64,000 bases of DNA, taken from assembly GCA_963669155.1 (NCBI GenBank), contig OZ022593.1:15875758-15939757 (forward strand). The letters run 5' to 3'. The DNA comes from Arbacia lixula. Taxonomy: Eukaryota > Echinodermata > Echinoidea > Arbacioida > Arbaciidae. Made by a program: the position numbers and the translations under genes. This document shows positions 2,292 through 52,160 of the stretch, piece after piece (the stretch's first letter is position 1; the number at the start of each line of letters is the position of its first letter). The notes under the pieces were generated by a model. It did not search any database and was not told the DNA's origin. It saw only the letters and a list, made by a program, of their open reading frames with translations.

Positions 2292-2381
2292 ATCAGGGTA
2301 GTATGTTGCTGTGGGAACAAGATGCTGTACAAAGGCTTCGAGGGTCCCTGACGTTAAGATACCATCTTGGTACACCAGCGC
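2292..2381 (-). CDS. RASGEF1 (A/B/C-like): RasGEF1-family exchange factor, first shared coding exon (partial gene)
   Basis: This 90-base exon encodes 30 residues containing LVYQDGILTSGTLEAF and HLVPTATYYPD. They match the vertebrate RASGEF1A/B/C segment of the form FQDGxLxSGSLEAL followed by HLVPTVDYYPD, which opens the RasGEF N-terminal (REM-like) module. On the minus strand it is preceded by a pyrimidine-rich tract ending in CTGCAG and followed by the strong donor GTAAGT, so both boundaries are seen directly. It starts and ends in phase 0. In vertebrates the family activates small Ras-type GTPases (Rap2, and Ras for RASGEF1A) by nucleotide exchange in the cytoplasm. The next residues expected (RTYIFTF-like) are not found in bases 1-2291, so the downstream exons and catalytic domain lie left of the window. 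I cannot tell which paralogue it is; invertebrates may have one gene. Confidence 0.9.
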
Positions 2382-2995
2382 CTGCAGAAGATTAAAAACA
2401 AAAAGAAAAATATAAATGATTAATGTACAATAGAAAATATATTTTGTATCTATTTGAACTCTTGTATATGATATACAATACATAATCAAACATAAACAAA
2501 CTGTAGACAAGTTCATAAAAAATTGTTTAAAAAAACAATATCCATATTTGAGTGTGTATGAATACACCCATCTCACCATTTGCATATCGATGATCTGATT
2601 CAACCCTCTAATTCCCCCTAACTACATACAGTAGTTATATGTCAATGACAACATAGTTTCCAGCCTATGGGACTGAGAAGGTTAAACTTCCAATAGCTGC
2701 CTTTTTCTTCCTGATCCTTGTAGTAGGGGGAGGACAACATCAATGGCCTTACAAACAAACTTCCTCATCCTGATGAATCACTATAGACAGGCCATTTTGT
2801 CCACGTCAGGAGAAGAAGAAGGAGGAAGATCAGAGGAAGCCTCTTTCAGAGAAAGCTGACATTTATACAAATAGGAGGTTGTTTGGGGGCATGGGGGGCA
2901 GATTTATGGCCTAATCCTGGAGCAGGTCAAGGGTTGTATGGTCATAACTCTGCAGGAAGAAATCAACAACATTCCAAAGTCAATATCACAATCCC

Positions 2996-3130
2996 AGAGA
3001 GAGAGAGAGAGAGAGAGAGAGAGAGAGAGAGAGGGAGAGTGATAGAGGGAGAGGGAGAGGGAGAGAGAGGGAGAGAGAGAGAGAGAGAGAGAGGGGGAGA
3101 GAGAGAGAGGGGGAGGGGGGGGGGGAGAAA
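2996..3130. repeat. GA microsatellite
   Basis: Near-pure GAGA with G interruptions; gives Arg/Glu and Ser/Leu spurious frames. Confidence 0.95.
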
Positions 3131-49300: not shown

Positions 49301-49330
49301 GGGACTAAAGATTTAAATAGGTGTATATAA

Positions 49331-51851
49331 GTAGGCACAGTTAATTCCAGTTTTTTGCTAAAAAAATCATATTTTACTTTATATGCAAAATCCGAGTGCC
49401 TATTCAAAAATTGAAGAAAAAACACGTCTCCCCTCTTACAAATGAAATATTTTGTTTGGGGAAAAAAAGAGAGCAAGTTTTTGCTGTCAGCAAGATATTC
49501 CCAGAGGTGATATTTGCCAGTAGTTTTGTAATGAGGTTGCACCCAAAATGAAGAAAAAGTCCAGTAACCTATATTTCTGTAATATTCCAATGAGCACTGG
49601 TATTTTTGAAGTCAGACTTCCTGAAAAGCAAAATTCCACTTCCCAATGTTTCTGTAATATTCCCATAATCACTTGATCCAATTGACTCACATAGATTATA
49701 CTTGTCATAAATATTAACGTGGATGAGTGTGCCGATAGGGTTAAGTTGTAATGTGGGGTGAAGCCTGCCCCATTTGTGAGTGGCCACCAAAATCTTATGT
49801 ACAAAGCCTCAGAGTGTAAAAATAGATGCAGCAGATCACAGGTATCCATATGAAGGGCGTGGTGGACATAAGGTGGACACCATATTTCTGATATGTTTAT
49901 GAAATAAATTCATGGATAACTGACGGAAACTGCTATTGTTTTCACCCAAGGGGTTAATTCCAAAGGAAATACAGGCATTATGTGCACTCTGAAAGGTGCA
50001 AATTTGAACCTGAATTTCTTAGGGTGATCTAAAGGAAATCAATCATTTCGAATCATGAATTCTCAATGACTATTTCATTCAGAATTCGGCTGTAACACAT
50101 TCACAAATCTCTTTGTTGACATACATAAAGTAACCACTCAGCTAAAAAATAGATAATCAATTTCTATGAATTTTTGCATGATTGGTTTGTTTCAATTTTA
50201 TCATCAAACTTTTTTGGAGAGAAAAAAAGTATGTTCTGAGGTATTACATCAAGTTTTATATATCAATGCATTATTAGTTGATATCAATTTTGTCATACAA
50301 ATATTTGTTCAAGAAAAAAAAAACATGTTTTTGAGTATTTCACCAATTTGTTTTCCCATATACTAAGGTGCTGTAGCTTTAAGACATCCAACATCCCATC
50401 CTTCTAGGCAGCAGGCAAATCCTGACCTTTCAGAGCAGCGCGCCAGGGCTTCGACTAGGGACGAGGTATCGATGATCAGGCACAAAATCAATTTAGTCTG
50501 ATCAGAAAAGAAGGGTGAATCACAACCTTGGGAAGTCTAAGAGAGCTATTTATAAAGACATGATTGTTCTGCTCTCAGAAAATAAGATAAAGGGAAAGGT
50601 CGGTGAACAGGGCGGTTACAGTGCAATATTTGAATTGTTAATGCCAAATTATAAATCAAGGGAAAAAGTAAAATGGTGGAACTAATACAGTGTCTGCATG
50701 AGCACAGCTATACAGTTTATACATGTATGTAGAGCTGTACAATCAGCAATGAGTACAAATAAGATGGCACATTATAGTGTCAAATATCAATTGAACACAA
50801 TTTCACAGAAATTGTGCGTGATCATCTTGGGACACAAATTAAACCTGATCCAATTACATGCGCAATAGGGTCAACAAGTGATAAAAAGTATCCCAACATT
50901 TCGAGGGAGAAAGAAAACGGGGGCCCAGGAAGCCGGGGAATATTTGCTTATCAAAAACCTTTTGCACAAGGTGATGAAGGAATTAGTCAGCAAATTAGTG
51001 GCTGTTACAACACAATTGTCACGCAGTCATTCAATACAACTGACACAATATGTGAGAACACTAACCACATGGGAACAACAACATCACCACCATCAATTAA
51101 CGTGAAGAGATTACAAGTTTGTTCATTCACTCAAATCTCATTCAGAGCAATTGTCTGCAGGTGCCCGCCAAAGCTGTGAATAAATTTCCTATGACATAAT
51201 CAAATAAATCATAAAAAGTGATACATCATCGTACACTTGTCATGCCTATTAAAAAGTATATCGTCAACTTATGTAAGTTTTCATCATCAGATTTGGTTAG
51301 ATTGTTACTATGGCGATGGTTGATGATGAGCAAACAGAGAAACAAACTGTGTTAGTAACCTGGCTTCCAGCCTGTTAGACTTTTATAATCTAAAACAACC
51401 ACAAGTATTCACTCTGGTCTCGCACTGATGAGGCAGATTCCCATTTCTCCCAGTCTGTCTTGGCCAGTAAAGAACTAGAGAATGGAGCATCTCCCCAAGC
51501 AAGACCTGCTTATTGTAGAGTTTGGATTAAAAATGCCAAACAGCCTTGAGGCAAAGCTACTATGACAATTGCATGTTAAGTACAGCATAGGTGACAGCAT
51601 CATAAAGTTGATTTCTCCATACCTCATATTAAGAAAAACTGTCCCATGATGTACAGAGTAGCAATATTCGTATTTTGTTTGCAGTCACGTCTTCTTCCGC
51701 TTGATTGTACTAGTATGGAAACAAACATGACTGCAAATTTTTTTTTGAATGTCACTGTGTGATGCATTATTAGATGGCTTTCATCTATATGGGTTATGGA
51801 GAATTGAATAAAAATGGCACTGGACTGAAAGAAAAGAAACAAAGTTCTTAC
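49331..51851. other. Intron
   Basis: AT-rich with one TAGCCTGG-family foldback (51355-51561). A plus-strand open frame (50814-51179, 121 residues, no ATG at its start) is hydrophilic and unassigned. No splice-bounded exon recognised. Confidence 0.35.
51355..51561. mobile_element. TAGCCTGG-type foldback, copy 5
   Basis: Bounded by TAACCTGGCTTCCAGCCTG and CAGCCTTGAGGCAAAGCTA. Confidence 0.6.
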
Positions 51852-52160
51852 CGGTGATGTCTTCTCCTCCTTCTTGATCTCTGGGCTTTTCTCCACAAGG
51901 TGATGGTGATGACCGTTGCATTTTCTACTCGGGTCAGTCAAACCCACGACGTGTCTGTCTTCAATCCGAGGCGGTTTGTGCGGGGCCGTCGACGGCGTCA
52001 AGTGGTTTGTGGTGGTTGTCGCTGTGGTCGTAGATGTCTGGTGTGGAGTGTTGGTCTGTGGCGCGGTTCTCTGCGGGAGGAAAGAGTTGTTGGAGAAGGT
52101 TACAGTGACTTCCACCGACCACATCCGCTGGTAAGGACCCTTGGTTACGATAGGAGGCAT
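51852..52160 (-). CDS. RasGEF1 alternative first coding exon, long N-terminus (103 codons)
   Basis: A minus-strand ATG at 52160 opens 103 codons without a stop and ends ACATCACCG|GTAAGAAC, a good donor in phase 0, which fits the phase-0 start of the shared exon at 2381. A TAA lies in frame 15 bases before the ATG, so this is the first methionine. The peptide begins MPPIVTKGPYQRMWSVEV. It then has a Thr/Asn/Pro/His-rich low-complexity stretch (about residues 30-65, with runs of Thr), a four-His run near residue 85 and a charged end (KSPEIKKEEKTSP). No known domain is visible; it looks disordered. RasGEF1 N-termini ahead of the conserved module are short and variable in known families, so lack of homology is not disqualifying. 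The intron to the shared exon would be about 49 kb. The joining is inferred from phase and strand, not observed. Confidence 0.7.

Follow-up and report, generated by a model that had tools for sequence, protein, structure and literature searches.

Does a RasGEF1-type gene start at one place, or is the N-terminus ahead of its exchange factor swapped by the choice between several first coding exons? The question is raised by a stretch of 64,000 nucleotides (the window, which is the whole stretch of DNA analysed), for which an earlier note had proposed alternative first exons spread over 50 kb and spliced to one shared exon. Here we report that the shared exon is a genuine internal coding exon and that one of the upstream candidates is a convincing first coding exon. 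The best explanation, in which we place about as much belief as doubt, is that the window holds the 5' part of a minus-strand RasGEF1 gene with at least one, and probably two, alternative promoters and first coding exons that swap N-termini.

Multi-promoter genes are common in animals, and the general phenomenon is therefore not new. The arrangement would be an ordinary one, of a kind already known from human RASGEF1A, where the transcripts ENST00000374459 and ENST00000395810 do not share their first exon or first intron and one N-terminus is eight residues longer than the other (passages of PMC11429621). The shared exon places the present gene in the same family, and an alternative first exon and N-terminus are thus already reported in human; the difference there is eight residues, whereas the candidate N-termini here are of 103, 45 and 22 residues, are unrelated and are predicted from the sequence (compared with passages of PMC11429621). 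RASGEF1A and RASGEF1B act on Rap2, according to the same passages (PMC11429621). Mouse Rasgef1b, a member of the same family, has 14 exons over about 35 kb for the whole gene, whereas the present gene may take up 50 kb with its upstream part alone; no alternative first exon of the mouse gene is mentioned in the passages of PMC10638313 that give these figures. A literature search on alternative first exons of RasGEF1 returned no paper; searches on RASGEF1B with alternative promoter and on RasGEF1 with sea urchin led to papers on other subjects, judged by their titles. None of these searches led to a published account of this instance.

The shared exon lies on the minus strand at 2381..2292 (30 codons in exactly 90 nt, both ends in phase 0). 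It starts ALVYQDG and ends YYPD, its full translation being ALVYQDGILTSGTLEAFVQHLVPTATYYPD, and both of its splice sites are good (acceptor TTCTGCAG/GCG, donor GAT/GTAAGT). The RasGEF1 identity put forward earlier is favoured by comparison with human segments, the identities counting as support and less than proof: 19/30 residues are identical in RASGEF1A and 18/30 in RASGEF1B, and 0/5000 shuffles reach either score. On these identities the exon agrees with the conserved stretch (SG-x-LEA...HLVP...YYPD) that precedes the RasGEF domains in the RasGEF1 family. As the identity to the human paralogues is moderate, the source would be an invertebrate. PDB sequences and Pfam models gave no match for the piece and so add nothing to the identification, as may be expected for 30 residues ahead of RasGEF domains. 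Judged from these residues, the exon is a RasGEF1-like region ahead of RasGEF domains. Its start at an acceptor calls for a further exon upstream. The remaining gene, with the RasGEF_N and the catalytic RasGEF (CDC25) domain, is expected outside the window, to its left.

Upstream exons were sought as open frames running from an ATG to a donor above a threshold, which gave 58 scored candidates on the minus strand; a stricter donor threshold with both strands pooled gave 31. The exon scans used an approximate codon table and approximate weights for splice sites and start sites, and candidate totals were set against 150 dinucleotide shuffles of 300-bp blocks. The exon at 52160..51852 on the minus strand (candidate 1; 103 codons, rich in Thr, Pro and His, phase 0, donor CCG/GTAAGA) ranks first in both lists (1/58 and 1/31). 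Its total of 37.5 bits compares with 11.3 bits for the runner-up on its strand and with a maximum of 22.4 for the best phase-0 total in shuffles, none of the 150 reaching it. Base periodicity was matched in 3/4000 shuffles and the codon score in 5/4000; on length alone it stands out less, a phase-0 candidate of at least 309 nt being present in 8/200. The GC content is 0.55 (GC3 0.65), whereas the 300-nt flanks have 0.37 upstream of the ATG and 0.35 downstream of the donor; the drop beyond the donor was counted in favour of the gene model. Score alone is unspecific, since an acidic simple repeat on the plus strand (21475..21708) scores 48.4, above candidate 1, and the plus-strand frame antisense to candidate 1 scores 23.2. 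Candidate 1 has runs of threonine and histidine, yet is no simple repeat. Its coding signal is observed directly, as are the shared exon and the phase, and as a first coding exon it is convincing. Just upstream of its start codon, a 41-nt stretch at 52171-52211 recurs 157 nt farther upstream, at 52328-52368 (85%), which suggests a short tandem duplication of leader or promoter.

Were 52160..51852 the single conventional first coding exon, joined to 2381..2292 over a 49-kb intron, the other candidates would be chance open frames. This reading we regard as possible, though it has the smaller share of our confidence, and the candidate exon at 31448..31314 on the minus strand (candidate 2; 45 codons, phase 0, donor GAG/GTAAGA) bears on it from both sides. 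While candidate 1 beats all 150 shuffles, candidate 2 is equalled by at least one phase-0 candidate in 26/150 (mean 0.19 per shuffle), and a third proposed exon has no good donor, all of which would suit a single start. Against it, candidate 2 ranks 2/58 on its strand with 11.3 bits, its donor is strong and its codon score was matched by 126/4000 shuffles; moreover, candidates 2 and 3 each have a CpG patch of their own upstream. Under the stricter threshold, with both strands pooled, candidate 2 ranks 4/31. Its periodicity was matched by 838/4000 shuffles; the accepted shared exon gives similar values (codon score 108/4000, periodicity 868/4000), so both tests are weak at this length. Because 26 of the 150 shuffles hold an equal phase-0 candidate, we grade 31448..31314 as a plausible alternative first coding exon only. 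A third minus-strand phase-0 candidate, at 63578..63498, comes close to it with 10.0 bits and was discounted as a repeat rich in glutamate and glycine.

The third proposed exon, at 5911..5846 on the minus strand (candidate 3; 22 codons, phase 0), ends at the weak donor AAG/GTATAG, and not at a GTAAG. It is missing from both scored lists, which set donor thresholds; its periodicity was matched by 2933/4000 shuffles and its codon score by 96/4000. With a poor donor and little coding signal, it is a weak first exon, and a CpG-rich patch upstream is its sole support. Four further donors that had been suggested are probably chance: 22494 (rank 25/58) and 49205 (phase-0 reading 0.3) carry no coding signal, nor does 19297, which is not in the best 25 of 58, and 35102 scores -0.1 in its phase-0 reading and 4.7 in phase 1. 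Of the alternative first exons claimed for this gene, then, 52160 is well supported and 31448 plausible, 5911 is weak and the four others are probably chance. The coordinates, strand, phase and in-frame upstream stops given for 52160, 31448 and 5911 were correct, as were the coordinates, strand and phase of the shared exon. Also upheld was the statement that the three candidates are not similar to each other: in local alignment, 100, 118 and 338 of 500 shuffles scored as well as the candidates did, and at the DNA level each candidate matches itself alone within the window.

The window is poor in CpG (mean o/e 0.36), and outside the exon of candidate 1 the four densest peaks start at 6201, 54251, 33501 and 22851. 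The densest patch of all, 6201..6700 (28 CpG in 500 bp, o/e 1.04), is a possible promoter of candidate 3; 33501..34000 (21 CpG, o/e 0.81) and 54251..55000 (23 CpG in 54251-54750) are possible promoter regions of candidates 2 and 1, respectively. The peaks lie 0.3 to 0.8 kb upstream of candidate 3 and 2.1 to 2.6 kb upstream of each of the other two. Within the window, 6201-6900 and 33501..34000 have no second copy, nor does 54251..55000 save for an 18-nt self-palindrome. In a proximity test that was post hoc, made after the peaks were seen, all three candidates have one of the peaks at 6201, 54251 and 33501 within 3 kb upstream, as would 15% of random positions; when the limit is 1.5 kb, candidate 3 is the only one to qualify with the top 3 peaks and with the top 4 to 6, and with the top 8 it is joined by candidate 1. 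The 500 nt ahead of the start contain nine ATGs for candidate 1, eight for candidate 2 and six for candidate 3; a simple leader without splicing would therefore have ATGs ahead of the start codon, which speaks against the preferred model. Parts of the CpG peak at 22.9 to 23.4 kb have further copies in three other parts of the window (39.2, 4.7 and 62.4 kb), and for this reason the peak was rejected as a promoter. Adjoining this CpG-rich repeat, a 117-nt unit is present twice in tandem at 23439-23672, the copies being 87% alike.

In the explanation that we prefer, with N-termini swapped at the start of the gene, separate promoters before 52160 and 31448, and perhaps a third before 5911, would start different transcripts. 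Each first coding exon, ending in phase 0, would be spliced to 2381, over about 49 kb from 52160 and 29 kb from 31448, and the product would be the same exchange factor with different, unrelated and probably disordered N-termini. We infer the splicing to 2381 from strand and phase and because no minus-strand exon in between is convincing; the promoters and the disorder are likewise putative, as is any influence on localisation or partners. The fullest version, in which three independent promoters over 50 kb and three coding exons set unrelated N-termini of 103, 45 and 22 residues on one Rap2-type exchange factor, appears doubtful.

Likewise improbable is a reading in which the true first exon lies beyond 64000 or is non-coding in the window, and in which 52160..51852 is part of another minus-strand gene or represents an internal exon, starting for instance at an acceptor at 52070. 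That site is a good acceptor-like one, 52070..51852 is the top minus-strand internal-exon candidate with 32.8 bits, and the sequence upstream, beyond 64000, is outside view; but the 30 codons before the acceptor are coding-like too (the whole exon scores 29.7 bits, the part from 52070 on 20.8), and an in-frame stop precedes the ATG at 52160 with four codons between. Moreover, only 34636..34511 and 50497..50427 outscore the shared exon between 51.8 and 2.4 kb, and neither looks convincing; they take second and third place among the 15 minus-strand internal-exon candidates, directly ahead of the shared exon (rank 4/15), and 34636..34511 is glycine-rich with a doubtful GTGCGC donor. As both score above the shared exon, a further exon may lie between it and candidate 1.

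The swap of N-termini that we favour had also been argued from a modest excess of phase 0, put at six donors against about three in phases 1 and 2. As a general count this was not reproduced. Among ATG frames with an upstream in-frame stop that end at a GTAAG donor, counted over the whole strand, phases 0/1/2 number 13/8/6, 9/5/4 and 6/1/0 on the minus strand at minimum lengths of 30, 60 and 90 nt, and 12/10/5, 6/5/2 and 4/4/1 on the plus strand. At 30 nt or longer, phase 0 takes 13/27 on the minus strand (binomial 0.08) and 12/27 on the plus strand (0.15); at 90 nt or longer it takes 6/7 (0.007) and 4/9 (0.35), respectively (Fisher 0.15). The shared exon, with its frame extended back into the intron, accounts for one of those six. 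Upstream of the shared exon, frames of at least 90 nt number five in phase 0 and one in phase 1, and five or more in phase 0 occur in 11/200 shuffles (mean 2.29), so that "modest" was the right word. Five other donor hexamers, pooled at 30 nt or longer, have no phase-0 excess (19/26/11 minus, 14/13/9 plus), while GTRAGT donors at 90 nt or longer do on the minus strand (4/0/0 vs 0/1/2 on the plus strand). The excess is weak as evidence, and phase counting was set aside because the plus strand, for which no gene is claimed, has a nearly equal phase-0 share at 30 nt or longer.

If the preferred explanation holds, the start of the RasGEF1 gene would be a site of N-terminus exchange outside vertebrates too, and concrete N-termini would be at hand for localisation tests of a Rap2-type exchange factor. 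Were there three promoters, N-terminal diversity would be larger than the eight residues of human RASGEF1A.

The vertebrate start motif MP[QRKH][TS] is absent from the minus strand and occurs three times on the plus strand; a looser motif does match on the minus strand. A Pfam scan covered 20 of the 242 open frames of at least 60 aa that passed a low-complexity filter, together with the four exons, and none reached the curated cut-off. The match of YrhC to candidate 3 (E 0.0081, 16.6 bits vs a cut-off of 27) was taken as chance, as were weak matches to RXYLT1_C, PyrBI_leader and DUF2070. Rfam and tRNA scans of the window gave no matches. The hypothetical protein of candidate 1 plus the shared exon had no relative in a prokaryotic contig collection, and tblastn of the shared exon against prokaryotic plasmids returned a single match (E 9); both collections being prokaryotic, these searches say little.

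The window also contains dispersed repeats. At 42508-42892 lies a fold-back element with arms of 192 nt, 87% complementary and 1 nt apart, and a second copy of about 300 nt is found 19 kb off at 61524-61834 (86% direct, 90% inverted); the element looks like a fold-back or MITE-type transposon. Another element, of roughly 110 nt, has copies at 44103-44209 and 62169-62276 and begins GGGGCCATATTCATGAAACC or similar. By eye, its end is a near-complement of its start, and a similar stretch lies near 5680-5790.
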